NCBI GenBank assembly: GCA_026770025.1
Contig: JAMXDE010000008.1
Location: 1,798,001 to 1,862,000 of the forward strand
Reading direction: 5' to 3'
DNA: 64,000 nt
Source: Craspedostauros australis
Lineage: Eukaryota > Bacillariophyta > Bacillariophyceae > Mastogloiales > Achnanthaceae
The notes under the pieces are model-generated. The model had not been told where the DNA came from. It worked only from the letters and a program-made list of their open reading frames with translations, and did no database searches. Every line of letters begins with the position of its first letter. Within the stretch, counting starts at the first letter, position 1. The position numbers and the translations under genes were made by a program. Shown piece by piece: positions 28,253 to 49,332 of this stretch.

Positions 28253-28412
28253 GACCCGCCTGAGCGAAAATAGTACACCTTTCTCGGGAACGTCGTTTCT
28301 GTGTTGAAAAAAACTGCGTATATCTCTTCTCCTACATCAAATACATCATATGGCAAGAACTAGAATTGTTCCGTCCAATCATTTTAAAGTTATAGAGGGT
28401 TGAAAGTCATGT
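28253..28412 (+). repeat. Left terminal inverted repeat
   Basis: The outer 38 bp are perfect with the right end. The inner part to about 28412 is imperfect and gap-free, with shared blocks at 28360-28368 and 28389-28399. Confidence 0.88.
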
Positions 28413-28881
28413 CAAATCTACGTATTAGGTGAATAACGCACAGACGCCACAGAGCTCATTGACGTTTCAATTTAGTCGCAGTGGTCATTCGTCCCAAAAC
28501 GTTCCTTTTTCTTCCATCGTTTGGGCCTTGCTCGCGATTCTTGAATTTCCGGAGAGTGACTCTACCTTGTGCTCGCACAGAATCGTTGGCGTGAACACAA
28601 AACTCTTGTTGCGCGGCGAGTGATGTTGTCAGTATCGTGATGCAGTGCGATGTGCCATGGGCCGTCAACCAGGATGGTAGGCATGGTCCTTGTTCCTCTT
28701 CCTCCTGTCTGTTATGTCAGCGTGGTAGCAAGGGGGATGGACAGGCTGCAATGCACGAGACGCATACGATGCAAGTTGTGCAGCGCTGAAATAGATGGTG
28801 CGAATTGCTGGTCCCAAGATGGAAATGGACTGCACCCTCGCCACAGTCCTGTACGCAGTGGCAACCCCAACCCACACATCT

Positions 28882-29203
28882 CTGACCCTAACCCTAACCC
28901 AGGTCTTGGCCCTCTGGACCCCTAGCCCTAACCCCAGCCCTAACCCTAACATTGAGTAACTTCATGGCTCTGTCTGAGTAATGTCAGCCACACGCAGTTG
29001 CCTCCCTCGTCTCTTCCAAGTTGCCGAAACTCCAACCGGAACCCCAACCCTAACTCTAGCCCTGAACAACTGCTTCCCTCCTCCCTAACCCAAACCCAAG
29101 CCAGAACCCCAGCCCTAACTCTAACCCTGAGCAACCTGATGACTATGCCTGAACAACGTCATCTGCACACAGTTACCTCCTCCGTCGCTCTGGTGTTGCC
29201 CTT
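28882..29203. repeat. Duplicated unit with degenerate telomere-like CCCTAA repeats
   Basis: Two diverged direct units of about 170 bp (about 28862-29026 and 29027-29203). Each starts with scattered CCCTAA, CCCTAG and CCCCAA hexamers (about seven exact CCCTAA) and ends in a related non-telomeric tail: TTGCCTCCCTCGTC in one, TTACCTCCTCCGTCG in the other, about 175 bp apart. Confidence 0.75.
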
Positions 29204-29892
29204 GTCGCGAACTCTTGCTTTTCTCCCACTTTTTTGCTTCCTGCACTGTTTCGATCCATTTCAACGGCCGCCGTTCCAGCGTTTTTGATTCGATTTCACG
29301 ATTTTTACAGTTTGTTTCGTCGGAGGTATCTTCCAGAACGTTCTTTGAACTCTTTGGCGCCAATGAAAAGTAATCAATATTGTCGATTGTGACTGCGGTA
29401 TCCGGACAGACGCCATATCTGCTGAGTAAAACCAGGCGCCTTGGCATGAAGGCTTCGTTCAGAATCTCAACGCACGAGCCATCCAAAGAGACAGACTCAG
29501 AGAAACAAAGACAAGAAACAAGTCAACACAAGAGATGAAAGGGGCCACGTGTTGACTGGTGGGAAACATCGCGTCGCGTGGCTTCGCATCATCCGTTGCC
29601 ATTTCCATTTCCATCGGCATCCCTTGGCAACTGCACGTACCATACTCGCTCGCCATCATCTTTTTTCAATCAAGAGCATCATGCACAAACACGTTCATCT
29701 TCTGAAGTGCTTCATCCCGCGCCCAACTGCCATCTCTCATTGCTTCGATCAATTGACCGATCGCCGCTCGTGTTCAGTTGGTGGGTTGTACCGTTACGGT
29801 CACTCATTCCTGCTTGTGCGACCGTGACAATTCCAACGCATCACAACGCATCACACCACAACACACCACCACCCACCACAACGCAAAGAGAA
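29204..29892. other. Element sequence of unknown role
   Basis: A minus-strand open frame at 29121-29486 (starting MDGSCVEILNEAF) is 121 codons, half of which lie over the repeat tail. No domain is recognised. The rest is presumably 5' flank of the captured prolyl oligopeptidase. Confidence 0.35.
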
Positions 29893-32151
29893 ATGAACAT
29901 GGCAGACGATCCCTCCATCTCATTGGAGGATGAGGATAACAAATCCTCCATGAGCTTCGACTCCAAGGCCAACGAGATGTGCCTCAACACGCTCGGCGGT
30001 CCCACCAAGCCCAAGACCAGATCCTGCAAGCTTCTCAATGTCCCCAAGACAAGACCAGATCCTGCTGCAAAATGAGGGACATCCTCCTGGCCGCAGCGGA
30101 TTCTGATCCTTCGTCTCTCACAAAGGCGGGATGTTCCAGGACGATCCGCGAGTGGGTGAGAGGCACGGATATGGCACCAGCGCCTGTGGTCTTCAAAGGT
30201 GAAAATCCGACATCGCGGTCTCCGCCTACGTTGACGATCAGAGGGTGCGCGGCAGGGGCATTTACGAAATCCGCACGAGAGCCATCACCCACCAGACCAC
30301 CGAATTCTGGATATGGAAGGTCAAGTACGAGCACATGCTGCCGCCCAGACATCAAACCCGAATCGAGACCGGAGATCCGCCGGATTTCAAACCCTGGCTT
30401 GCGCCAAAAGATTCGGATACCGATTTCGTTGGCACGTTCTCAGGGTCGCATTGCGATCCGACTGGTCATCTGAGGGGGCCAAGACATTCATGGCCAGATC
30501 CATATCTACGTCAACGCCACAAATTCGTCAATTGGATCAGCATCGGATATACCAAACCCTCTTCGAACCTTCCAACAACCTCCCCCGCAAAAACCACACA
30601 ATCACGAAGAACGATCTCATCCTCCTTCACATTGATCATGCCAGATCGAAACTGGATTCTACCAATCAGAAGGGACCAACAGCTGTGTTTGCTGGAGTCG
30701 AGAGGGGCCCCAATCGCCTGCGCCAGCGTCCGATCCGCGGATCCCAACAAGGCCATCGATTCTGGGCCACACTGCCAGCTACACAGGCCCACCATGCTGT
30801 GGCTCGGCGATGCGTCCGTGTTTGATGGCGAAGACATGGAGATCATGAAGCATGTTGATCCAGAGGTCCACCTTGGCAGCAAGCTGCAATTGCTACCAAG
30901 TCATTTCGATTCGAAAGGTTTGGACGTCATGCAACGCATCGCAGAAAGCAAGGACGGCACTGATGCTCTGCACATCATCATGTCGAAGAGGCGTCCCCAC
31001 GAACAAGCGGACCCACCTTGCTCTACGCCTATGATGCCTTTGAGGTCGTGTCGGTCCGCATTACAACCTGCAACAGGTCTGGCATGGTTGGAATGTGGCG
31101 GCGTCTGCGCGGAAACCAACGTGCTTGGTGATGAAGAATTTGGTCCCAGCTGGCATCAGGTGAGTGCCAATTATTGTCGATGTTGTTGCTGCTGTGTATG
31201 GTTGTGTTGTTCACTCGCGCATTTGCACCTGGCATGTGCGCGGCGCAGAGCAGACCAAAAAATCAGGAATGGAAAGCGTGCACAAAACAGGCGCATTGAA
31301 GGAGTATGACTTTCCAAGCTTGTGGGAGCACTTGTCATTGACTCTTTCATTCCATTCCATTTGTGTCCCCACTTCACTTCATGTCATACTCACAATTGAA
31401 TCAATGTCCGATTGGTTGGCATGGCATGATATGATACGAACTGCGCCCATTCTGTGGTACTGCTCGCACACACTCTCATCCCGAATGATGGACTCCACTC
31501 CAACCATGTGTCTGAATTGCGGCAATATCGTCTTGCTGGAGGGCGCGGTGCACGAAAAGCGCACCAAACCACACGAAGACTTCATCGCAGTTGCTGAGGA
31601 TTTGATTTGGTCGAAAAAATGAAAAGCCAAAACATTGGCCATCCGCGGCGGATCCGGCGGAGGATTGTTGGTGCGAATGATTTTGTGATGCTCCTGGACT
31701 GTTCAGCGCGGTGCGTTGGGCAGTCTCGATCCGTGTCGTCAAGCAGTCAAAGATCTGCATTCGGACGATGCAGCTATATGCGCGACGAATTTGGATCCGG
31801 ACGCGTCCGATTGGAGGTGTTCATGGGGCAGACCTCGCTGTACCACAACATCAAATAGGATCCAAATTTTCTACCAATCCTATTCACTGCCGCACGAACG
31901 ATGATCGGATACACCCAGCGCCTGTGTGAAAGATGATGAAGAAGCTGTGGAGCCTGGTTCAGGGAAAGCGATGGCTGACATGCTACGATGAGAATGCGGA
32001 GGGCAGGAACGGTCTGCCTGCAACGCCGAAGCAGGACGCCTTCATGACTGCGCTGGCGTACGATTTCATGTTCAAGAAGTTGTCGAAGGATGCCAAAAAG
32101 TCAGCTGACGAGTATTGGACTGGATTTGGATTGATGCACGCAGTGTTCTAA
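29893..32151 (+). pseudogene. Decayed prolyl oligopeptidase (peptidase S9A-like) carried by the element
   Basis: Pieces in all three frames follow in order the layout of bacterial-type S9A prolyl oligopeptidases. They are the start SISLEDED (29910s); propeller fragments VSAYVDD, RSDWSSEGAKT and LFEPSNN; ESKDGT; TLLYAYDAFEV (about 31014-31050); AWLECGGV and EFGPSWHQ; then, after about 390 bases beginning CAG|GTGAGT (probable intron), HEDFIAVAEDLI; IRGGSGGGLLV with the nucleophile serine at 31653-31655; NDDRIHP with the aspartate region (31900-31905); and QDAFMTALAYDF. The histidine box reads EGRNG where the family has GGHGG, so the catalytic His is Asn (32008-32010). Several frameshifts, an internal loss and a stop near 31619 make this a pseudogene. 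Confidence 0.8.
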
Positions 32152-32429
32152 TCGTGTATCATGCCATACATAGCAAGCACATGTGCGAATTGAGTAGATG
32201 CACGGCGATGGTGGTTCCATTGTGCATGTCAAGATCATAGCAACCGATAACATCAGAGCCACTCTATACATACCAACAACAGCTTCCTCTCGTAATCCCT
32301 GTGGACACGCAGTTACTGCAGTTGATATCGCCATGCTGCAACTTGATAGTATCAATGTGACACAGAGTATAGTATCGTAGAATAGAATGCAATATACTAA
32401 TGTTGGCATACTTGCGGCGGTCGTCAGGA
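32152..32429. other. Spacer between cargo pseudogene and transposase 3' end
   Basis: 278 bp of AT-richer sequence between two convergent reading units. No gene. Confidence 0.4.
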
Positions 32430-35400
32430 TCAATCATCGGAAGGTAGCAGGTTGCCATCAATCACATCAGCGTCCTGCCCGTCGTATGGGCGATCATCCA
32501 GAACCTGCTCTTCGTGCGCTTCTTCGCTTTGAGTGTTCTCCTTGGATGCCATGATCCGCAGTTCATGCATCTCGTTCAGGCACTCTTCGCACTCCTCGTC
32601 ATCCAAGTAGCCATTGTTCTCGAGGTATCTCTCCGCTCGACCGTCAGGAGCTGCCAGGAAGCATTTCAGGTACGTGATGTCCACCTTGATCCTCTGCTCC
32701 CAATCAAGCAAGAAAGGCCCGGCCATCAGCTCTTCGTGAAGCACATGAGCGCTCCTCCTCGTGTCCGGGTTCCTGCAAGCAATCGCAGCATCGCACACAA
32801 TCTGCGCCACTTGTTTCGACATGGACGGTACCTTGGTTGCCGGAGGTGCTGATGGATCCTTCTTTCGTGAGGTGGCTTTGTCTGGATGGCAGATCGCCCA
32901 TCCCTGCCTGATGGATTGAGGGAAGTCCACTGTGGCATTTCGTTCACAATTTGCCGTTTCTGCTGCTGCTGTTGCTGGTTCCAGAACACGCGAAGTGAGA
33001 ACGCGTTTGAGCACTTCCGTCTTGGTGGTGCTCTTGTTTGTTGTTGTTGCGTGTCGTCGCTCAGTCGGTTGTGAGCCGCGGATATTCTGTGGATCCATCA
33101 CGAATGCTGGTGAGACCTCGGTGATGTCCTCATCATTGCAAGTGACATCGAGATGGAGAATGTCGAACTTGTCGATCTTGCCCTGCGTGATAGTCTCTGG
33201 ATGCGTCAAGCCCGATGATGCTGTGACCTGGATTTTGTCATCAATCAGATCAATTTGATGGGTGGCGCGAACGGAAACTCGGTTGGTCGCGAATGCTTTT
33301 TCCTTTCCGTCCACACCACAGATGATGGCATGTCCCAATCTGCTCAGATCCAACAGAAGCGTTGTTGTCCCCTTGATGTTGGCAGCTTTCAGCACTGTGA
33401 AAATATCGCCTTCGGTGGCAATCTTTGCGTCCCTGGCACTGTCCACATACAACCTGAGTTGACGTGAGACAAAACCGAAGTGTCCGTCCAAAGCACTCTT
33501 ACCAGCTTGTGCCTCAGTGTACAGCCATTGGATGATTTGGAGTCGTGGTTTGGGAGGGCGGGTTCCGGTGTCTTGCTGTGCTTTTGCCTTCGTGGATGAT
33601 GCAGCCTTCGCGTCATGATAAGATGACTGTTCTGTGTTGATTTTGGGGGGAGGTGGATACTTAGCCTTGTCCTTGTGCTTGCCCTTGTTCTTGGCTGTTG
33701 TCTTCCGCTTCTTCTTCTTCTCTGGCATTGTGTATTCAACTTCAACCTCTCCCTGGTTTAGTCCATGCATGTACCTCATCAGTGCCGGACTCGCAAAACA
33801 ACTGGCATTATCACTTTGGAATACGACCTCTTTGACCCCCTTGTGAAGCTTTGGAAGCACAGTAGAATGTAGAATCTTGATGGCACCAGCAACTTGGACA
33901 TGATCCTGCTTGTTCCGCCCCTTCATCACCATGTCAATGAATTGGTACTCGAACTTACCGTTCTTGTATTGGATTGTCATGACACCTAGGAGAGACATTC
34001 CATTTTTTTCCGAAGAACGCTTTCTGAGCTTCCTGATTCTCCGTTGGGAGGATGCGTTGCTTGTGATCAAGCATGGCAATGATGCGATCTGGATGATCCT
34101 TGAGGCGCTCCTTTTCCTCCGTGATCTTCTGCGCTTGTACCTTTCGTCTCACTTGGTGGGCCATGTACTGGCGCAGCGCGTCATCACACAGGTTAATTGC
34201 TGCAGCCATGCGATCCAATTCGAACGTGTTGCCGGTGATGCTGTTGGTGGCAGTTTTCATGAAGTTGCGAACACGAATCGGGAAGAACGTCATGACATCT
34301 GCACATTGCTTGCATGCTTGGTTCACAAACGGGAGGGAGCCATTTGTCAGAGCGAACTCCGCGGAATGTAGATTATCCGCGGTTGACTTCACCTGGATGT
34401 GTTTGTTTGCGTATTCCCATTTTGCAAATGAAAGAACAGAATCACTGTCCGTGATGATGGCCTGTGCCTCGTTGAGAAGTTCAGACACGAGCTCTTTGTC
34501 TTGATGTTCCTTGTTCTGAGTCCGAAGCAGTTCCATGACTCTCTTAATCATGCTTTGGAAGTGCATGAATACAGTCAGAGTGTCTGTGTAGAAGGAGGAC
34601 AGGCCAGTTTGACACTTGCCACGTCGCGTGAGCAATGTCAGGATACTCCTGAAGGCAGGCATACCAACTGGGTCATCTGTTGTGTTCTTGTACTTGGCAA
34701 AGAGCTGCTCTTCTGATATTGATCCGCGAATGAAGATAGGCAGGTCTGGGAACAGAACACCAGCCAACTTGACGCTCCTTGTGATGCCTGGCCGGTACTG
34801 GAACATGGAAGTGAGAAACGAGACTACACCCTGGAGACTAGATTCCTTGACACGGTACTTGTAGTCTGCGTGTGGAAACTTGCCGCCAGAGAGGATCATG
34901 CCACCAACATGTGACAGTCGCCTGTGTCCTGTACGAGACATGGATCGGCGTCCAAGCTTGATCTTTGCCTTGTCTCCTTTCGACAAGCTACTGTAGTGCG
35001 CGGCCAGGATTCGGGTGCAGCGCCTGGAGTCACAGGTCATTGCCAAAACCGCACGAGCAGTCAGCGATAGGTCTTGATTCCCCCAGAAGGCTAAATGACA
35101 GAGAGTCTGCTCCAGCAACACAGGAGGGAGCTGTTTGCGATGTCGCACGAAGGTCATGGCTTCTGAAAGCTGTTCGGGGGGTTCTCTGCCAGGAAACATG
35201 TGCTGGGTTGACCCACCACAAACTCCATCCCAGACTCGGTTGATGAGACTCCAACGACCAGTCGCTGTCTTTCGTGGGAGACGTTCAAATCCATCTACAT
35301 GGAACCGTGAGAGGGGTTTGATGCTAATGCCAGCTGCTTCAAAAATGGCTTGCAGCATTTTTCTTCGATTCACCTTGCCCTCGTTGGCTGGAACGAACGC

Positions 35401-36075
35401 AGCATCCGTGTCATCCTCACTGGTTGTACTCGCACAATCCGACTCGCACTCTTCCATAGACACAGCGACATCTCGTCGCGCGAGCACATCATCTCTTTCC
35501 TGTCGATGTGGCGCCCTGCATCTGGTTGCTGATGATTTGCGCTTGGGACGTGTGGGCGCAGCAGCATCACCACAAGTCCCAATGGAGAACGAATTGGCCT
35601 GTGGTACAAAGGCATTCACACCTGTGTGACGTGCACCTCCGCTGATGGATGATGCACAGTTTGGGCAAAATGGTGGCCTACTGCAGTGACTGCAGAACAG
35701 GGTCAGACATTGCTTGCAAGGCATGATACCAAAGCAGTTGGGACCCATGTAGTCAGATGTTGGAGTTTCCATGCTGTTGTTGGGGTGGAATGTAGAGTAT
35801 GGTAGACCACCCACGCCTGTACCGATGTAGCTGGGGATGCAAAAGGAAGGAGGTTGTATGTTGGGAGGGACATGATGATTCGCAACCATGGGGAGAGGAG
35901 GACTGTGAACGCTGCCATTGTGGTTTGGTCCAACAGGTGCAGAGTATTGGTACGTTGCGTAGTGCCCATGAGGTGGTTGGGGATAGATGGATGTGCCAGC
36001 AGTTGCTGTTTGACGTTGCACCTTTGATTGGGATGGATTGGGGTCGCTGCTCGAATCCTCGCGTGGACGGGTCAT
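32430..36075 (-). CDS. Transposase-like protein, frameshifted in a homopolymer
   Basis: Two overlapping frames form one protein of about 1214 residues. The upstream frame starts at the ATG at 36075 (MTRPREDSSSDPN), has a Cys-rich finger CKQCLTLFCSHCSRPPFCPNC, and runs through a helical region to LDHKQRILPTENQEAQKAFFGKK. The downstream frame takes over with GMSLLGVMTIQYKNG, EVVFQSDNASCF, WLYTEAQAGKSALDGHFG and a long acidic tail. The switch falls in a run of seven T (34003-34009, plus strand), so one base is extra; sequencing error, recent mutation or recoding are all possible. Conserved-looking acidic positions (LDHKQ, QSDNA, SALDGH) suggest an RNase-H-fold DDE/D-type transposase with an insertion between the second and third. 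An ATG at 36252 is also in frame. The superfamily is not recognised with certainty. Confidence 0.7.
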
Positions 36076-36732
36076 GATGCGATAGCGATGGTGGCTGACG
36101 GACGATGTGGGTGGGGGGAAGGCACAGATGATTCTGAATGATCTCGATGTTGGGGAGCACTGAGTGTTGTGCTGACATTGCAGATACGAGAGCACAGCAG
36201 ACAGCGACAACAATACACAACAAACCAAAATGACACATGCATATTCGTTCACAACAGCATGAGGGATGTGTTTGTGTCAAGATCGGCAGCAACAGTTCAA
36301 CGGTCGCTCATTGGTGCATACGTGATTGTGATTGGAGAATGTATGTGGAACCATCTGCGATTTTTATTCTGGCGAAAGAGTGAGTGTGACGCGGCGCCAA
36401 CACAACGAGAGAGCAAGTGCAAGAGAGAGAGAGAGAGAGAGAGCGACGAGTGCTACATTAATCCGTCTATCCATTCATTCTCTATTGAATTTCATAATAC
36501 TTTTTATTCTCATCGATTGTCACCTCGATTTCTCATCATTTGCATTGGCATCGTGAGAGACGATCGCGTGTGTATCATGATTGCTTCCCTGGTGGCCAAA
36601 CGCAAAACGGTAGAATACAATCGATCTGTTCTTCGTTGGCTGCCATTTGGAGTTGTGTTGGCTGTCGGCGCCGATCGTCTCAGATGCGACGATTGAAGTA
36701 TCCGCAGTGAATGGGCAAGAGTACAGTCGTTG
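36076..36732. other. Upstream region of the transposase gene
   Basis: Probable promoter and leader. Contains an (AG)n run at about 36422-36443. No other gene is supported. Confidence 0.4.
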
Positions 36733-36966
36733 GGTGTGTGGTGTGTGGTGCGTGGTGTGTGGTGTGTGGTGTGTGGTGTGTGGTGTGTGGTGTGTGGTGT
36801 GTGGTGTGTGGTGTGTGGTGTGTGGTGTGTGGTGTGTGGTGTGTGGTGTGTGGTGTGTGGTGTGTGGTGTGTGGTGTGTGGTGTGTGGTGTGTGGTGTGT
36901 GGTGTGTGGTGTGTGGTGTGTGGTGTGTGGTGTGTGGTGTGGTGTGTGATGTGTGATGTGTGATGT
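36733..36966. repeat. (TGTGTGG)n minisatellite
   Basis: About thirty tandem copies of a 7-base unit, nearly perfect, degrading to GTGTGAT at its right edge. It produces long His-Thr or Val-Cys-Gly frames on both strands, which are artefacts of the repeat. Confidence 0.95.
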
Positions 36967-39900
36967 GAGTTCGCTGGGGGCGGACATTCTGTTCTGCCTG
37001 TTGCTTTTGATTGGTGCGTCGGAGATTGGTGGCTGGTCCATGAATCTGTCATTTGTGATCCCATCGTGTTGTTTTCTTGATTTTCGGACATACTTTGGTT
37101 CTTCGTTGTTCATTTGCTAAATGTCATTCATCCTCGTGAGCAACAAACGACATTTACACTGAACCATTGACGATTCCCATCCAATCAGATTTGACCGAGG
37201 TGCGCCAAATTCACAACAACAACTCCCACACCACACCCACATTTTCGATCAAGACAACAAAACTGGATCGGGCATCGACCAAGGCATGCAGTGTATTGTC
37301 GAGTATGAGACAAGTAGAAGACGCCAAGTCGATCTTCGAACCATGATGGAACCACAAAAGCGCAGCGCTCACAATGGTGCAGGAGCGCGTCCGTGGTTCC
37401 ACATATTTCAGGAGCCGCTGCAATTTGTCCACTGCCGTCGCTGATCGTCAATTCTGTTGGTTGAGTCGTTGGCCTCGTGATGCCAAGCGGTAGGAAATCA
37501 TGCCCCGCACCATCTCCAGCATCCGGGCCATCCGCAAACCTGCGTAACCATCTGTATCAATTCCATATGCATCTCCTTCCATTGGTGGAATTCGAAAAGG
37601 CCAACACCACACGGATCCGCGAGCAATTGAAAGTCAACACACAGTCTGCTGGAGCCCGGAGCCCTCGCAAGAGGATTGCGAGCAACATCAATTCGGAGCG
37701 TGTAGATCGCTCAGGCACAACTTCCCCTTTCCCATCAGCCGGACACCATGCATTATTGCGCAATACGAATGGTTGATGCAACTGTAATGGCATAGACTCA
37801 CCTCAATCGCGCCAATCGTGCATGACACTGACGATGCCCTCCAGAAGGTGCATGTCGACGGAGAGGAATTTGCATGGGTATGGATTTGGTTGGGTAGAAA
37901 TAGCACCAGACGGAATTGCGAAACAAAAATTGGACGACTAAAAAGTAAACAATGAGGCGGAGGAGATGAGAGTGGTTCGTCCCTCCAGACGTCGAAACCG
38001 ATAGAATGCGTGATGGAAACGTTCAGGCGAGGGTGCAAAAATGTTAGTGCGAAGAATATCACGGGGTCCCTACATAGGTATGCTTTTGTTGGCATAGGAA
38101 TAGCACCAGGCGGAATTGCGAAATAAAATTGAACGACTACAAAGTAGACGACAAGACGAAGAAGACGACGCCAGTCCGAGCATGTGGCTGTCGAAACCGA
38201 TGGAGTCCGTGAACGCAGCGGAAAGGGGAAGATATTGCAACTTTATCGTGAGAAATAACACGAGAGAAAACGAGAATCCGGCAACACAACGCGCCGAACT
38301 AAAAAAGCACAGGGTGAATCGCATGCATCGTATTGGTGGGTGGGTATGTCGGCAGCGTTGAAATCAAGGTATGGAGTTCATCCAACGGAGAGGATCGTGC
38401 AAAGGATGAATGCAGTAATGTTTGCAATTGTGCTACGCACACAACAACATCGTATACCACTATTGAAAAATTCAGTAGATTGATTTGGGAGAAATTCGGG
38501 GAACCAGAAATTGGACACAAAGGACCCAAGACAAACAAGGAGTTGGCACGGCACAACTCCAGGTTGTGGCTCTCACACTCCTGCGCAAGCCAGAGTGGGT
38601 ATGATGGTGCTGTCGTACGCTGTCTAGTGTATGAACATACCTATCGTTCAATGATAAGAATCTAATCAGTGGATTGCTAGAGTAGGCACAAGGTGGGCAC
38701 CTGCAGCATTGCCACAGAATGCTACGAGGAAACCATCGCCGCCGACACCAAGCGGCATGCCGAATGGAATGAGATTCTTGAATGATCGATCCCAAATGCT
38801 CTGCTCCAAGTACAACGCAATCTCCATGATGCTGGTAACATTGTCTGGTACAACTGGACTGACTCCAAGAGCAAATGTGCTGACTTCTGCCCATGAGCTA
38901 ATCGGTGACTTGCGCCAGGCTGCTTTCACAGTTGCGTGTAGCAATTTGTGGCTGCACGTACCGGCGTTTGCTCCGCCCATCTGCACCATGTCCTGCGATG
39001 GTACCAATACGGCGACTATGGTTCGTCGCCAAGTGTGTCGATACGGTATCCTTGGGATGATCACAGCTCGCTCCATCCATCCATTCGTCGATCTATCCAA
39101 TACGTATGGTGCTGGTATCAGTAGCATGGCATGTCGTGTCATGTCGTATCGGCAAGTCACGAATGTATTCTGGAGTGTGCGCGATTTGTCGCTTGGCTTG
39201 TGAATCGGGATGCGCAGTTCTCTTGCAAATGGACACCAGTTCTCAGCGCAGAGCAGTGGCTCACATTTTGCTCTCACACGAACACAAGTCAATCGTGACG
39301 AGAGGACGAGCACGCGCCATCAATTCGAAAATGTTTGTGCTTGCGAGGAAATCGGAACAACCTCTCAGCCTCATCCACACTACCTCATCCGTTAGTATGG
39401 CACTATTGTTTCATTGCTCAGAACATCCCATCCATCTGCCCCGACGCTTTCCGTACAGATGATCACCACCAGCTTCTCGCCTATCGCTCATCCAACAACC
39501 GCTGGGGGAGACAACAAATCGCATCCGCCTGTGGAACAGCGTTCACCAATCATCAACCGCCAGTGCCATTCATGGTTGGCGCCGGCTGTTGCTTGCTCTG
39601 TGACTATCCAGACTGCCACGAACGGCCCCAGCAGACAACGGAGAATGACGACGATCAGCGAGAGCAAGTGATGTTACCAAATCCATAGGCGCAAAAAAAA
39701 ATCACACACACATGTCAGCATCGATGTCTTCGCCTAGAGCAAAATTGGAGCTGTGTTTCCACAGCACCAAGAAGAATCGCTGTCGTATGCGACGCTGCTA
39801 TCAAACCAATACAATAACCCTAAACCCAATCCACAAAATGGTGTCCAAACGGTCAGCACGTTGTTGTTCCTTGTCTTTGATCCACAACAACTCTGGAGAC

Positions 39901-41280
39901 GATAACGCACCATGGAACTGATCGTCATACCTATCTTATGAGGGTAACAATGCTGACAATCCTCGCACTCCAAGTCTGCCTGCGCCGCTGACCACCAAGC
40001 GCACCTTGTGGATGCAACACCATCGTTGACGGTTGGAATTGACGGTGGAATGTTGATTCTGCGGAAGTCAGCCGATCCATCACAAGATCGAACGTGATCA
40101 GCCTCCGATGTGCAAATAATACAAATGTGGGCAGGTAGGATAAAAAAACAGATGCATTATATGATATGATATACTGCTGTACTCCCCTTCTTGTGTTCAG
40201 TGCGGTACATCATTCTGTTCTCGCAGAGCCACTCCGCAGTTTTGCGGCGCACCAGAACCGATTCTTCTGGGGAATGTGTGTTGGCACACACAAAGCACTC
40301 CGGAATGCGCGAGCGCAGTGTCTGAATTGGTTCTGTGATGATCGGGAGACGATACGGATGTGTTGTGTGTGTGTGATGATGTGAGATTATTATGGATACT
40401 CTGATTGTCTCTGCAGAGGCTGTGAACATGGGATTTGCTGCTGCTCCGTCTGTCATCCGACCGTGTACCAACAGGTTCTGTTCCACACAGGTTTCTAACA
40501 AAAATCCATATACTACGTCTGTATGTCCACCGAAATCAGAGGTAGAACAGAGCGATTCTTTGGGTGCGACATGGAACAAAACCAGGAAAAGGAATGAAAC
40601 ATGATCCAGGAAAGAGCAAAATGAGCTCACAAACTTCCACAACAACAACGAACATCAAATCCTCCAGGAGAGGCGCAACGAACGGAAACTCACCAACTCG
40701 AGAAGAGCACAGCAGCGTACATCAGGAATGTGCCGTAGTCGCCAGCTGACTTTATTTCGCAGAACAAGAACCTTATCCTCCTGCACCTATCTTGTCACAG
40801 AGTCTCGTGACCCTTGTATGAAATGAGAGACCACACGTGGAACGCGCGAGATCATGGTGCGACGAACCCGGCAGTGATCACAGTTCCCGCGCTCACGAAG
40901 TACTACCAGCATCAGCAAAGGCAAAAGTAACATCCCACTATACCTGGTGGAATATGCTGATAGCTCTGCACCTTCATCCCATCCTAATGTCGTACGTACA
41001 GCGCGGTGCACGTACGTACCATCGCATCCTGATGCAGTTTTTCTCCTCCACACCTGTTCCGCGTCCGCCGCGAGAAACTGCGTGCAATCAATTGGGGCCA
41101 AAAACAGCCGAAATGTATGCCCGTTCGCACGACTGTAGACACGTCTGAGTTCAGCTTCGAGCGCCTTGCTGTGAGTCCGTCTGAGAGAGGAAAAAAGAAC
41201 ATTTTCGCCGCTCGCCGACGTCCAACTTGAAGACAATGACGAGTCGCATCCATGTCCGATCGAAAGCTAAAAACCTAAAG
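36967..41280. other. Right part of the element: unassigned coding-like remnants
   Basis: Several open stretches look partly protein-like, but none gives a recognised domain. They include plus 37190-37450 (a frame reading SIFEP then a stop then WNHKSAALTMVQERV), plus 37477-37776, and the 215-codon minus frame 38666-39313. Minus 40157-40648 can be read with a 78-nt phase-0 intron (AGA|GTATCC...TTCAG|ACA). The mixture of short good-looking segments and stops suggests decayed cargo, as for the prolyl oligopeptidase, but no family can be named. Confidence 0.35.
37877..38275. repeat. 200-bp tandem direct repeat (2 diverged copies)
   Basis: Copy 1 is about 37877-38076 and copy 2 about 38077-38275. 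Shared blocks TAGCACCAG/CGGAATTGCG lie at 37901 and 38101, exactly 200 apart, and GTCGAAACCGAT at 37991 and 38189. Confidence 0.8.
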
Positions 41281-41299
41281 CACGGGCTACTGTGGGGAA

Positions 41300-41459
41300 T
41301 TTCTCAACTCAAGCCCTCATAACTTATAAAATATAAAGTGTAGCAATTCTAGGAAAGTCAATCCGTCACTTTCTCATAGAGAGGAACATCATATTAAATT
41401 TATAGGGAAATCTGAGAGGACTTCCCGAGAAAGGTGTACTATTTTCGCTCAGGCGGGTC
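41300..41459 (-). repeat. Right terminal inverted repeat
   Basis: 41422-41459 is the exact reverse complement of the left 38 bp. Imperfect similarity continues inward to about 41310, with blocks at 41344-41352 and 41314-41323 at the same distances from the end as on the left. Confidence 0.88.
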
Positions 41460-41463: not shown

Positions 41464-41897
41464 ACCGCAAACACGCTCGGTCGTCACGTGTTGTCACTGC
41501 TCTGTTGGCCCATCCTCTTCGTATTGACGAGCAACCATTGCAATCACTCCGTGCTGCGCTTGCATCACACCAAACTCCGAGCAGCTCGTACGAACATCAC
41601 CACCGAGAGCACACTGCCGGAGTGCTGCTGCCACTGATACCAGAGGAATACTCTGGTCGGTCCGTCCACGGATAGAGAGACCATCGAATCCAAACACACA
41701 GCCGACTCCCTCGTCGAAGAGACAGCACATGAAGTAATACTGCTTGTACTCGGAGAAAGCATCCTACTCTACCATTTTCTATACACGAGTGAAGGACATT
41801 GTACACCACCAAGCAGGTCGAGGCAGTCAGAGAGCATAACATTGCAGCAAGCACAGTAGCAAGCACAGTAGCAAGAACAGCAGAAAGCACAGCAGAG
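41464..41897. other. Upstream region of the CUE-domain gene
   Basis: Presumed promoter and leader. A short tandem with CAAGCACAGTAG units occupies about 41849-41895, just before the start codon. A minus-strand frame 41494-41730 has a faint look of a proteasome beta segment (GVGCVFGFDG) but does not match further and is not entered as a gene. Confidence 0.4.
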
Positions 41898-43218
41898 ATG
41901 TCGATCACGTACGAGGAGGCGCTGGCCACGCTGGAGGCCATGTTCGGCGATCCATGGACGAAGGAAACACTCGACGCGGTTCTACGGCACGAGAAAGGTC
42001 ACATGGAGAACACATGCGAGCGCATCCTCAACCACGGTAGCAGGAATCCCAAGATCCTGATCGACCAACTCAAGAGCGGCGCCGAAAACCCTCAGGTATC
42101 CATCGATGCCGAACTCGCTCGACAGCTCAATCAACGGGAAAACAAGGGGCGTTCGCAAGGTTCCAAGGCCCTGGAAGGCAAGCCGAGAAAGGGAAAGCCG
42201 ACAACGCTGCCCCCTGGCTTTCTTCGCGTGCCGGGCTACAAGTATGCCGCGGACACAACCGCATCTAATGCTGCTGCTGCCGCAGGAAAAATCGACGATG
42301 AAACCCTCGCGCGGATGCTGCAGGACGAACTATTCTCTGAGGAGCTTGCCAGGAATCCTGATTTCGCTCATCTGGCGAGAGGGAGGAACGCATCAGCGAG
42401 GTCTTCCAGCCGTGCAGGACGTGGCGCAGCTGGGTCAAGAACGTCCTTCCCCGCCGCCAGAAGGTCGGCGACTTCCAATGCCACGGTTACATCAAATGCT
42501 GAAGAGAGGCCGAAGATTTTCGGAAAAATATCAGGTGAGTACTTGTACTTGTGCTCGCATTCATACTCGTACTCGTATCCTTACAGCTGGGTGCTGCAAG
42601 TGCAACCGCAACGGCAAGTGCAACCTCAACGGCAAATGCAATATCACTAGCACCAGCACCAGCGAAATCAAGGCAGAAATGGCACACCCCAGAACGTACC
42701 GTGTCACATGGCAATGCTGGCAGGGACCGTGTGCTAGCCAGCTCGAGGAGCCAGATATCATACCATACGAACACGCATGCACGTTTGAATGAGTGGATGG
42801 ATGAATGAATGAGTGACAAGCTCCTCCTTGCCAGGTTTATGGATTGCTTCGGCGCATTGTCTCTTCATCATAGGAATCGCGGGGACTTGTTAGATCGCAT
42901 GCTCTTACGGTACACATCCCCATTTCCGCCAACTCCATTCCTACTGGTACGTCATCCCTGTGACCGCCACATTTGCCTATACCCACAACCTCGTTCCCTC
43001 TCTGCCCGATTTCCCCGCGACGCGCAGAGCTTGGCGACAATGCGCGAAAACGGCTGGCCCTATTTGCCTCTCAGTTCGAGCAGAGACTGAATGCACGCAA
43101 CGTGCCAGCTGGTGCCAATGCAACTCGCAGCCCTGGGGATGCTGTTGCCGAGCGTCGAGGTCTGCTGGATGATGAGTTCGAAGACACGATCGAGTTTGAG
43201 ACGAGAAAGAATCAGTAG
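41898..43218 (+). CDS. CUE-like domain protein (2 exons)
   Basis: Exon 1 runs 41898-42534 and exon 2 runs 43028-43218, joined in phase 1 (TCAG|GTGAGT, GCGCAG|AGCTT), giving 275 residues. The chosen ATG (MSITYEEALATLEAMFGDPW) starts a CUE/UBA-type three-helix region, about residues 4-45: ATLEAMFG, LDAVLRHEKGHMENTCERILNHG. CUE domains bind ubiquitin. A basic middle follows with TLPPGFLRVPGYKY, then DDETLARMLQDELFSEEL, an arginine/serine-rich stretch, and a helical C-terminus LGDNARKRLALFASQFEQRL ending EFETRKNQ. The presence of a CUE domain suggests a ubiquitin-related adaptor, but no specific orthologue is recognised. The intron contains the TACTCG words seen in intergenic DNA. Confidence 0.75.
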
Positions 43219-44637: not shown

Positions 44638-47600
44638 ATGATGGAAGCTGCGAGACTCGCGGCCGAGGCGGCCGTGCAAGAGGCAGCCTCGATGGAGTCG
44701 AGTCATTTGGAAAGCGGAAACGACTTCGAGGATTCCAACTCCGCCATGAGGATTGACGAGGATGAACACATGGCGCTGTTCAACGCGCTGCTCACGGCCG
44801 GTGGTTTCCAAGATCCGAACAGCTTGCTCTACGAGATGAGCAAGTTAGGGATCGACCCTAACGACACCGAGAGTCTCCGACGGCTGCTGCAGGCTGTCAC
44901 AGAGCAAGAACAGGAGAGAATTCGGCCGGAGGAGCACCACCTTACAATTGCACAGAATGGTAGGTCACCTGGCGTGATGTTGTTTTGCTGCAGATACTCC
45001 TTTTGTTGCTTCTTCTGTTGTATCAATAACGACAATCGTTGCGCCAGTCGCGACGCATCGCATTGCGAGACGGATGCGAGGGCATCGCCACAATACTCGT
45101 ACGAAGCACGAGATTCACTGCCATGTCGAGGATGAAGATGCTCTGGACGACACAAGCAGTAGTGCTGGGCTTGGTCTTGACCTTCCTCTTGCCCAACCTC
45201 AGAACCGAAACTGTCGAATCGGTGTGGGGGTGGCAAGCCAATTTGCTCCGATGTCTTGCGCACTACGGGTACTAATATGCTCACACATTCATTCTGCTAT
45301 CCTCCACCCTCCCGCTTTTCTTTGGTCCGCTCTGGTGTCCACAAAAAAATACGTTTCCATGTATATACTGCATATACCATCCTCAACGTATTAAACAATG
45401 CACACGCGCGCATCAACAAACAGGAATGATCCTGGAAGCGACAAAGACAGTGACGGGCTTCCCTCCCGATGCTCTGTTGATGACCTCCGCGTAAGTATGG
45501 ACATGTACCAACCGGGCAAACCTTCAGCCGCGTCATGCTATCTTGCTCTGCCCCGTCCTACCCTGCTTTGCTTTGCGATGCTTCTTGTTTTTGTTTTTGG
45601 ACCGACGATGAAACTGTCTGGTGCTATGTTGTTCTGGTGACGTGGCCAACGATGATCCATCCATATCCCCGGTGTGCCATGTTCTTGTCACTTCGAGCAG
45701 AGTATATGCACGATCTTCTTCGTCGTGTTTGGGAACGTACCATCGCTCTGGCCCCCTGAAATAGTCGTGGATGCGAGTCCAACCACTATCACCGCCTTAA
45801 CACTGACCCACAATACATCCTGCGCTTCTCGCTTCAACTTGACGATCATGGGCCACGAATGCAACGTCGATCATCGCTCAGCTATGATGCGGTGTACGAG
45901 GAGGATCTGCCTGGGCTGCTTGCTGTCAAAACACACTTCTGGGACAAGAGGATCGCCGACGCGGAGGTATACTTGCGCCGACGAACGGTCGAGGGGGATT
46001 GGGTGTGGCTTAAGACGAGAGCCGTGTCGTACATGAACAAACCGATGCCTGGGATCATCCTTTTGGAACGATGCGTTGAAGATGAGAGCGTTGCCTATCA
46101 TGTCAACCGCATAACAAGAATAACCTCCATATTGGTGCAGGCTGTGGAGGCTGCGCAAGTGGCGTCCATCCCTTCGACGAAGGCTCCGGTTTCTGCTGAG
46201 ACAGGAGGTGCGAACCTCCAAAACGAGACCCAAGCAGCCACGCTCGGTGACAACGCTGCTGCGTATCAGGCCATGTTGCAAAACTCCGCGGACTACGACG
46301 ACGGGCAGATCATCAACAACGCGGTGCACCAGATAATGAGGGACGCCGAGAATCCGTCGAACTCGGTCTCAAGGCTTGAGAGGGAGATCATGGAACGGAT
46401 TGGCGGTCGGAAGAAGGAAGTGTTCGATCCTTTCTCAGTCATCGAAGAGGTTCGGGAGGGCGTGCGGCTTGACCTGGGCATGACCCGACTGTCTGCAACA
46501 GAGGCCAAAATGATATCGTTCGTCTTGTCAGGCCAAATCCGAGCCGAGGAGCTGGCGCACTTGGTGTACCACGCACTAAGATCGGAGCAGAGCCTTGGCC
46601 AGGTCCTTGACTCCTTCGTGTCGCTAGAGGGCAGAAATCAACCCGACCAGACCAACACGGACGTGGGCCAAACCAGCCACGTTAACCAACACACACCGCT
46701 GCCTTCCCCCGTGTCCATGCCGATCCCGCCCATTTCAGTCGTCAACTTGTCCTACACCTACCTTGGCAACGAGGGGATCGAGCTGTTCGGAAGGGTGCTA
46801 TGCATGCACAGCTCACCTCTCAGGACGATCGACTTGAGCTTTTGCGGCCTGGAGGAAGCCGGTTGCCTGTCTCTATCACGGTACCTGTCAGAGCGCAAAT
46901 GGCGACTTATCGCGCCTCTTCGTGGGATAATACTGTCGGGCAACCACATCACACTCACAGCAGGGTCGGCCCTGGGACAAGCCCTTTCCCCCGAGCGGCA
47001 TTGCGGAAATTCGGACAGCCACGTTCGTCTTCAGGCCAACCCTGACGACCTGGCCAATCTACTCGAGGCGACACCGAAAGCGATCTCCGCCCGCGATCCG
47101 GCAGAGCAGAAGTATTACAGCAAAGTCAGCGGTCTGATAGTCCTGCACCTGTCATCTGCGCTTGTCGACGTGAGCACAATCGAACCACTTTTGAATGGCA
47201 TCGGTCCCGACAGTCCACTCCGTGAGCTCAGCCTGGCGTCCAATCACCTCGGTCCCAAGGGCGCAGCCATGTTCGTGAAGTTTCTGGAGAGCGCTGCACC
47301 GTCTCGCAAGAAGCGCGTGATGCCGTACCTGGACAGAGTGGACCTGTCGAACAATAACCTTGGCAACGAGGGTCTCACAAAGCTGACAACATCCATATCG
47401 AAGCGCAGCTCGATCCATCTCGTCGAGCTTCGTCTATCCAACAACATGATCGGTGCCGGTGGCATCGAGACGATGATGAAGCAGCTCCTTCAGCACAACC
47501 TCGTGAGCCTATCCATTGACAAGAATTCAATCGGAGATCAAGGCTGCCAACTTGTGGCCGCATCCTTGCAAAGCATGAAGGCGTTGTCGCGCCTCAACCT

Positions 47601-49332
47601 CGGCTTCAATCAGATCGGCAGCCGAGGCGTGAACAGTTTAATGAGGAGTCTTGTGGCGTGCGAGTCCATCACCTTCCTGGGCCTATCGGGGAACAGCATG
47701 AAAATATCAGGTGCTGTGGCTCTCGCATTCACCCTCGCTCAGCATCCACGCCTTGAGGAGCTGTCCTTGGACAACTGCTGCCTCAGCCAGGCTGCGCAAT
47801 GTCACATAGTGGCAGGCATCATTTCCAACCGCTGGGTTCCGATGAAGAAACTAAACGGCTTCGAGGTGGGGCCACCCATGGTCGCACTGGGAGCTCTCAA
47901 GGTGGTCGCCCAGAACCTGAGCAACGACGAGTGCTTCCGGCAGCGAAAGGACGAACAAATGCGGACGATCCTGCAGTGGATGGAATCGAACCGAGCAGCG
48001 AAGCTGGCCGGCTACGAGATCGATGACCGCGGCATGCCATCGCAGGATGCTTACCGCCGGTTGCTGGGGTGGTTGCGACAGATCCCATTCGACGAAGATG
48101 AGCTGGTTTCTTTGCGCAAGTATTTCTACGACTCGGACGGCGGTTCTGAAGATCGCGGCAGCGACGGATACATCAACCTGAAGCTACGTGGCGACCTGCT
48201 CGCTGCGCTCGAGAGTGAGGTCGCCGACAAGATCCGTGACGAAACGGACATGTTCGACGAGTACGTCGGATCGATCGGCATGGATCTTGATGGACTGGCT
48301 ACCCCCAATCCAGAATCGGCATGGGCCTTGTTTCAGCGGTGGTTGAGCGGCAACCCTGTCGCTCCTGCCGCGTCTCCAACATTCTTCGGTTCCTCGACTA
48401 CCGACACCATGTCCAATTCAGAGGCCTGGGGCATGGGCGGGACGCGAACAGGAACAGGAGCAGGAACAGCTTCCTCCCCTCTTGCTTCTGGTCCCAGCCG
48501 ATCGGCGCAACCGAGTCAGACGCAAGCACAGGTCAGGAAGGACGCGGGCAGCATCTCCGACAGGAACCAATCCAGGGGATCGATGTCCACGACCTCACGC
48601 GACAGCGCGCGCAGCCTGCAGCACAGCGGGTCAGAACCGAGCACGACTTCGCAAGGCGAACGCCGCAGAGCGACCGTTCTGAAGCCCAGGATATCCATGT
48701 TTCCCAAGTTCGAGGAGATCCTCGAGGAGTACAAGGCGCGGGCCCACATTTCCTTCGAACAGGAGGAGGATTCCGAGAGGCAGGAATTCATCCTCACGGA
48801 GTACGCGGAGAATTCACTGACCATATTGCGGCAGCTGAGGTACCACTGCATGAACAGCGGACTGGACGGTTGGCGACAGGGCGGTCTGAAGAAGCGGAAG
48901 GTGCTGATCGTCGATGACAGTCTGTCGTCGCGGAAGCTCGTCTCTCGGGCGTTTGAAAGAGCCAACTTCATTGTGGACACGGCAGCGAATGGTGCCGAGG
49001 GGGTTGAGAAGCTCAAGCAATCCATCTACGACATCGCCTTCATGGACATCGACATGCCCGTCATGAATGGCTTCGAAGCTACGAAGCAGCTGCGGGAGTG
49101 GGAGGACGCGGTCCGTCCAGGTGCAAGGCAACCGATCTGCGCCTTGACGGCAGCATACGTGGATGACTTTGAACGCAGCGAACTAATGAAATTCAAGGAG
49201 GCAGGGTTGGATGTGATGGAAAGCAAGCCGTACAACATACCACGGCTGTTCAAGGTCGTTGATGACGTGTCACCCATGTTCAGCGACCTCAGCATCAGCG
49301 TCACGCAACAGGAACGCGGGGGTTCCATATGA
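44638..49332 (+). CDS. PAS - leucine-rich repeat - response-regulator receiver protein (3 exons)
   Basis: Exons 44638-44959, 45424-45490 and 45882-49332 join as G|GTAGGT..CAG|GAATG (phase 1) and GC|GTAAGT..CTCAG|C (phase 2), giving 1279 residues. The joins rebuild a PAS domain (about residues 100-205: TIAQNGMILEATKTVTGFPP, then DAVYEEDLPGLL and a WVWLKTRAVSYM strand). About 415-770 carry ribonuclease-inhibitor-type LRRs (LRELSLASNHLGPKGAAMF, VDLSNNNLGNEGL, LSRLNLGFNQIGSRGVNSL). After a Ser/Thr-rich linker, 1136-1260 is a CheY-type receiver with every key residue: DD at 1141-1142, phospho-acceptor Asp 1185 (AFMDIDMPVMNGFEA), Thr 1219 and Lys 1245. No histidine kinase or output domain is present. 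The likely role is a phosphorelay-regulated scaffold or sensor. The first ATG of an ATG-ATG pair was chosen. Confidence 0.82.

Follow-up and report, generated by a model that had tools for sequence, protein, structure and literature searches.

The stretch of DNA considered here is a 64-kb window on contig JAMXDE010000008.1 of the diatom Craspedostauros australis (64,000 nucleotides; coordinates below are positions within it, and C1, C59 and similar numbers designate contigs of the same genome), and it contains between positions 28253 and 41459 a DNA transposon of 13,207 bp bounded by terminal inverted repeats (TIRs). The first-pass annotation had proposed a large TIR transposon with cargo, and this proposal is now sustained by copy number, target site duplications, a paralogous empty site, a conserved transposase gene and a captured gene; all three interior components that it named (a transposase-like gene, a captured enzyme gene and blocks of repeats) were identified (Table 1). 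Very probably, what lies in the window is a single member of a family of giant TIR DNA transposons that has been mobile recently, with the mechanism, movement in trans and passenger cargo discussed below. The observations underlying this reading are the multiplicity of copies, precise GACCC...GGGTC ends, TA-centred 4-bp duplications (WTAW in most cases), the presence of near-identical copies in different places, a long gene under purifying selection and a captured prolyl oligopeptidase gene in decay.

The ends had been described as exact inverted copies over 38 bp, collinear and gap-free for about 150 bp with a diverged inner part, and flanked by identical ATAA tetranucleotides, and each of these statements proved correct, with the outermost bases at 28253 and 41459. 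Within the window the 38-mer occurs once per strand. Positions 39-150 of the TIRs are 44.6% identical in ungapped comparison, as against means of 27.5% for shuffled sequences and 24.9% for random pairs, and this level was reached by 0/2000 cases in the shuffle control and by 0/2000 in the random-pair control; farther than about 150 bp inwards gaps are required.

Table 1. Parts of the transposon and its flanks in the 64-kb window
Feature	Position	Strand	Remarks
Left 4-bp target site duplication, ATAA	28249..28252	none	
Left TIR	28253..28402	+	perfect over 28253-28290 (38 bp), diverged on to ~150 bp
Direct repeats, 106 bp x2	28920-29025 and 29095-29200	+	74% alike
Decayed prolyl oligopeptidase (S9A) gene, captured	29899..32112	+	homology in several frames; ~600 bp gone, kept in 8/10 aligned copies
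Transposase gene	32430..36075	-	one frame break near 34.0 kb; intact versions elsewhere in the genome
Cys-rich N-terminal cluster of the transposase	35656-35718	-	
Putative catalytic residues	D 34066-34068; D 33810-33812; E 33513-33515 or D 33486-33488	-	roles inferred
Tandem array, 7-bp unit	36733..36967	+	length varies between copies; sole site of difference from the twin on C59
Direct repeats, 56 bp x2	37873-37928 and 38073-38128	+	82% alike
Right TIR	41310..41459	-	perfect over 41422-41459 (38 bp), diverged on to ~150 bp
Right 4-bp target site duplication, ATAA	41460..41463	none	

A search of the genome (74.8 Mb, 90 contigs) with the element ends, the check proposed together with the first-pass annotation, revealed a multi-copy family. 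At least 41 matches were obtained for the left end (best 40 of 53 candidates scored) and at least 40 for the right one (best 40 of 51 candidates scored), while a 24-base end pattern with at most one mismatch gave 54 matches dispersed over many contigs and none for its reversed control. Ten of these 54 are unpaired; for two, located on C12 and C71, a contig end is closer than the length of an element. Nine more complete copies range from 12,950 to 22,504 bp and, taken with the window copy, show 93.7-99.9% identity at ungapped positions, the spread in size being partly due to nested insertion. The copy at C5:470027-490026 contains an 8.9-kb insert with a reverse transcriptase domain (PF00078, 5.2e-7, barely over the cut-off) and an RNase H1 N-terminal-like domain (PF01693), which is a nested retroelement.

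Both ends and both flanks could be read in 25 copies, and identical 4-bp flanks were found in 23 of them: ATAA in nine, TTAT in six, TTAA in five, ATAT in two and GTAA in one, so that all but the last (22/23) conform to WTAW. Since one matching pair of tetranucleotides is expected with a probability of 0.0046 at window composition, this coincidence exceeds chance; WTAW itself accounts for 0.36% of window tetramers. Flanks matched in 18/19 subfamily A copies with GACCCGCC ends, in 2/3 copies with GACCCCGG ends and in 3/3 copies of subfamily B (the subfamilies are defined below by their transposases). Two candidates were excluded from the 25: C9:1350318-1352238, whose left end lacks GACCC and which has no duplication, and C59:67365-113714 (ATAA/TTAT), which is one repeat in two inverted copies rather than an element.

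Evidence for recent movement comes from a twin of the window copy at C59:54112-67360. Its first 1,668 bp are identical to the window copy, and over the remaining 11,707 window bases the two differ by one substitution and two gaps (42 bases in total), all of them at 36936-36949 within the 7-bp tandem array. The 1.5-kb left flanks of these copies share no similarity, and a near-identical twin in different surroundings implies that the element moved recently. The twin is inserted in ATAA adjoining the end of a related element, and at C1:549994-550084 a paralogous locus shares its flank and the adjoining end, has ATAA once and is devoid of the insertion; the joined flanks of the twin match it in 85 of 86 bases. 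The C1 locus thus represents an empty site for the C59 twin, which supports one insertion. The left flank of the window copy has one match in the genome, namely itself, and no empty site for this copy was found in this genome. The related element end, sharing the same first 28 bases, stands beside an identical flank at several places including C1:549994-550084 and C49:381174-381234, and within C59:67365-113714 flank and end occur together twice, in opposite orientations and 46 kb from each other; these pairs look like a larger repeat containing such an end.

The same data bear on whether the locus might be a segmental duplication or an assembly artefact bounded by inverted repeats. The C59 twin lies in repetitive surroundings, its flank being present four times, but the ends are exact while flanks differ between copies, each of which has its own duplication, and the 54 end matches are spread over many contigs, making this explanation extremely improbable.

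The long gene of the minus strand is preserved in the copy on C7 as 1,214 codons with no stop. A genome search with this product yielded 39 listed matches (best 38 of 440 candidates scored), among which 21 span all 1,214 residues and 16 of these 21 are stop-free: 9/12 at 95-100% identity (subfamily A) and 7/9 at 88-91% (subfamily B). Four of the ten copies in the alignment (C22, C17, C7 and C4) have an unbroken frame. The ratio of nonsynonymous to synonymous substitution rates (dN/dS), estimated for the ten pairs formed by five intact genes, amounts in nine of them to 0.16-0.25 within A and to 0.30 between A and B, and by this measure the coding sequence is under purifying selection. A sliding test for excess synonymous change assigned p<0.001 (uncorrected) to 18 of 1284 test windows, 14 of them in the transposase region and four in the region of the peptidase. 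Pairwise counts had hinted at a second coding gene in 36980-39900; because no test window among the 18 falls there, this gene was rejected. In the window copy a homopolymer near 34.0 kb holds the single break of the transposase frame, and the C59 twin carries the same break. Provided that no sequencing error lies behind it, one broken gene shared by two different sites points to mobilization in trans, and the window lineage probably does move in this way.

Beyond the two subfamilies, a degenerate motif pattern taken through the genome gave 65 matches (one for the control), comprising 36 exact ones, 11 of GKSPVDGHF type, 17 of GKSALVDHF type and one other. The 17 GKSALVDHF-type matches, which we presume to resemble P-loop ATPases, were set aside; these GKSA-L-like sites (mostly GKSALVDHF) cluster at C3:2.96-3.25 Mb and C34:0.29-0.31 Mb with a spacing of ~5-15 kb and perhaps represent a family of P-loop ATPase genes. 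The GKSPVDGHF-type site on C19 (494500-513800) belongs to a frame of 1,482 codons whose core is 43% identical to that of A, and defines family C. Three blocks are invariant across A, B and C: DHKxxxLPTxNxExQxxFFGKxxMSLLGVMT; FQSDNASCFASP; and TEAQxGKSxxDGHFG. The last of them offers D as well as E. The order of these blocks and the hydrophobic runs preceding the first two acidic residues are reminiscent of an RNase-H core, and the conserved acidic blocks as such suggest a DDE/D enzyme. A structure model of a piece of the window transposase, built with no alignment, reached a mean predicted local distance difference test (pLDDT) score of 35, neither supports nor excludes an RNase-H core and was not used.

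The end of the C19 copy of family C, GACCCCATTCAGG after ATAT, is likewise repeated in the genome (at least 40 matches, best 40 of 167 candidates scored). Eighteen of those 40 ends were examined together with their flank, and all 18 flanks are NTAN; 16 of the ends start with GACCCC and two with GGCCCC. One pair, C30:223042-232506, has GTAC at both sides, while the other 17 loci provide one flank each and so describe the target context, not a duplication. A search for the opposite end of the C19 copy did not find it.

The enzyme gene proposed for the interior escaped an initial scan of ten open reading frames (ORFs), none of which gave an enzyme over the cut-off; frame-by-frame reading and a genome search then revealed a peptidase. 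Its piece from the C26 copy matched a post-proline cleaving enzyme weakly in the PDB set (E 0.0099) and had 77 matches in the genome (79/79 candidates scored), including a host paralogue at C3:1276539 with an uninterrupted frame and 52% identity to it. This host gene is recognized by Pfam as Peptidase_S9_N (9.5e-18) and Peptidase_S9 (7.3e-17 and 6.2e-19), and the copy on C12 as Peptidase_S9 (3.2e-25); peptidase pieces taken from element copies of subfamily A fell under the Pfam cut-offs. Because the window segment is related by tblastn to the C12 copy (E down to 6e-101) and to the host gene (5e-40), it is assigned on homology to a decayed prolyl oligopeptidase of the S9A type. The ~600-bp segment is absent from both the window and C4 copies. 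The least broken peptidase of the transposon type, at C12:325600-329300, has long open frames, apparent introns and Asn for the His of EGGHG.

Peptidase matches lie inside all three B copies and in A copies, and none of the 77 is near the 11 motif sites of family C, the nearest on the same contig being ~50 kb away, which implies that the capture predates the A/B split. Retention in both subfamilies, the long open frames of the C12 copy and the four sliding-test windows noted above would be compatible with a peptidase that does work for the element instead of travelling as a passenger. Against this, its homology is split between frames in the window copy and in all four other element copies mapped (C22, C17, C26 and C4), and in 6/6 copies read by eye (window, C4, C22, C17, C26 and C12) Asn replaces the His of the host EGGHG, which we take to be the catalytic one if the usual S9A assignment holds. 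A working role is therefore very improbable.

Taken as one copy of a recently mobile family, the window element may be understood as follows. The long gene would encode a DDE/D-type transposase, the Cys-rich N-terminal part of which may bind the element ends; the enzyme would cut the element out at its GACCC ends and would insert it at a TA-centred site opened by a cut with a 4-bp stagger. Presumably the window copy is non-autonomous, with its lineage moved in trans by intact copies, and the protease gene would be a passenger acquired before the A/B split and now decaying.

Several observations weigh against this picture. Two of the 25 copies have unequal flanks (C2:2630141-2643846, ATAA/TTAT; C38:549531-563171, TTAT/TTAA), which may reflect mutation after insertion or exchange between copies by recombination. 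The empty site concerns the twin and not the window copy, and it is a paralogous repeat as distinct from an allele. The C7/C17 gene pair has a dN/dS of 0.74, the two genes being nearly identical with very few changes, and the frame break shared by the window copy and its twin sits in a homopolymer, where a sequencing error is possible. Furthermore, no sequence or fold match links the long gene to a known transposase. Among 7994 candidates scored with transposase residues 200-1000 none had E<=0.01; the core (640-960; 2839 candidates) and a three-member transposase profile (7996 candidates) gave none at E<=1. PDB sequences provided three weak matches to the protein (best E 0.083) and none to the three-member profile, Pfam returned three families at E<=5, none of them a transposase and none over its cut-off, and the NCBIfam search was negative. 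The weak Pfam matches encountered (THOC7, SCRE, DUF2152, Branch and others) lie far under the cut-off. Pattern matches in viral contigs (61) and in contigs of prokaryote genomes (56) included no confirmed relative. The protein thus appears to have no significant relative outside this genome in the collections searched, the uncertain coverage of eukaryotic transposons in which keeps this from being proof of novelty; among open-licence papers, surveyed by title and the start of the abstract, none described this element or a giant transposon carrying a peptidase. The first-pass annotation knew of no named family to which the element could be assigned; these searches brought up no classified relative, and they neither prove nor disprove that view.

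The element is regarded as representing a new family within a kind already known; it would belong either to a Sola-like lineage that has diverged or to a superfamily not yet recognised. That it is a diverged giant Sola (Sola-1- or Sola-2-like), in which case only the family would be new and the mechanism would be the same, is a serious possibility, if one we stop short of favouring. Sola transposases are DDD, and the third conserved block has a D option. The 4-bp AT-rich duplications found here are of the Sola kind, and AWWT is given for one Sola2 group (PMC3627910); a Sola1 element of 21.5 kb with accessory genes is described for Ectocarpus (PMC12477816). This giant, Sola1-1_Ec32, resembles the present element also in having an accessory gene on the strand opposite to the transposase, which there encodes a ParB/methyltransferase protein and here a peptidase (PMC12477816). 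The Sola2-Fanzor elements differ by AWWT as opposed to WTAW and by TIRs of 12-13 bp, shorter than the 38 bp perfect here (PMC3627910). The comparison with Sola covers duplications, TIRs, size and accessory gene as described in these papers.

Somewhat more tentatively, families A, B and C may constitute an unrecognised eukaryotic DDE/D superfamily characterized by GACCC...GGGTC ends, TA-centred 4-bp duplications of the form NTAN and a transposase ~1.2-1.5 thousand residues long whose N-terminus is Cys-rich. Such a superfamily would support giant elements that are moved in trans and have kept a captured prolyl oligopeptidase while splitting into subfamilies at least once.

Strong divergence from some other known superfamily with no Pfam model (Kolobok, Academ or similar) seems unlikely. 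Kolobok elements likewise produce 4-bp duplications including TTAA and have 5'-RR and YY-3' termini (PMC9587614), a rule to which the 5'-GA...TC-3' ends conform, and TTAA makes up 5/23 of the duplications. However, the other 18/23 are not TTAA, so that the present element is not TTAA-specific, and the C/DxxH motif expected between the second D and the last E (PMC9587614) is absent in A and B, with family C having one DKKH at a variable linker. A strict Kolobok assignment fails on these two counts.

An integrated virus or a Polinton-like element, not propagated by cut-and-paste, would agree with the size class, the long inverted ends and the copies on many contigs, but Polinton/Maverick duplications are 6 bp as compared with 4 bp here, none of the 61 viral pattern matches was confirmed, and the ten scanned ORFs (a narrower set than a full six-frame profile search) gave no capsid, polymerase or integrase match, which leaves this origin scarcely credible.

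Near-identical giant copies together with many intact transposase genes make this genome a good system for cut-and-paste transposition at 13 kb and more. Two sites sharing one broken transposase offer genomic evidence for movement in trans, and a peptidase older than the A/B split shows for how long such an element can carry a gene of host type. Should the enzyme be unrelated to those of Sola and Kolobok, it would stand for an additional transposase superfamily that follows a target rule of its own.

Beside the element, the ORF at 41799-42650 has a CUE domain scoring 21.2 bits relative to the Pfam cut-off of 21.1, and the one at 45859-49332 (1157 aa) combines, as read by eye, leucine-rich repeats with a putative response-regulator-like receiver end.

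Compared with elements described elsewhere, the size and cargo, considered unusual in the first-pass annotation, are indeed unusual and at the same time not unprecedented. Pfam, as we understand its coverage of superfamilies, has a KDZ model, and no transposase profile of KDZ, EnSpm, piggyBac, hAT or MuDR matched the protein at E<=5. Giant transposons have been reviewed (PMC6431247), and those of the KDZ, EnSpm and Sola-1 groups in Ectocarpus, 10-30 kb in length, have broken transposases, accessory genes and nested insertions (PMC12477816), so neither size nor cargo is new in itself. With the giant KDZ elements the present family shares a number of traits, as they attain up to ~30 kb, can have transposases exceeding 1,300 aa, contain nested insertions and include broken transposases moved in trans (PMC12477816), the difference being the lack of any Pfam transposase match noted above. 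Pack-MULE and other gene-capturing transposons (PMC6431247) likewise hold a decaying captured gene of host type between their TIRs, whereas many copies of the family described here encode an intact transposase of their own, and its duplications are 4 bp long.
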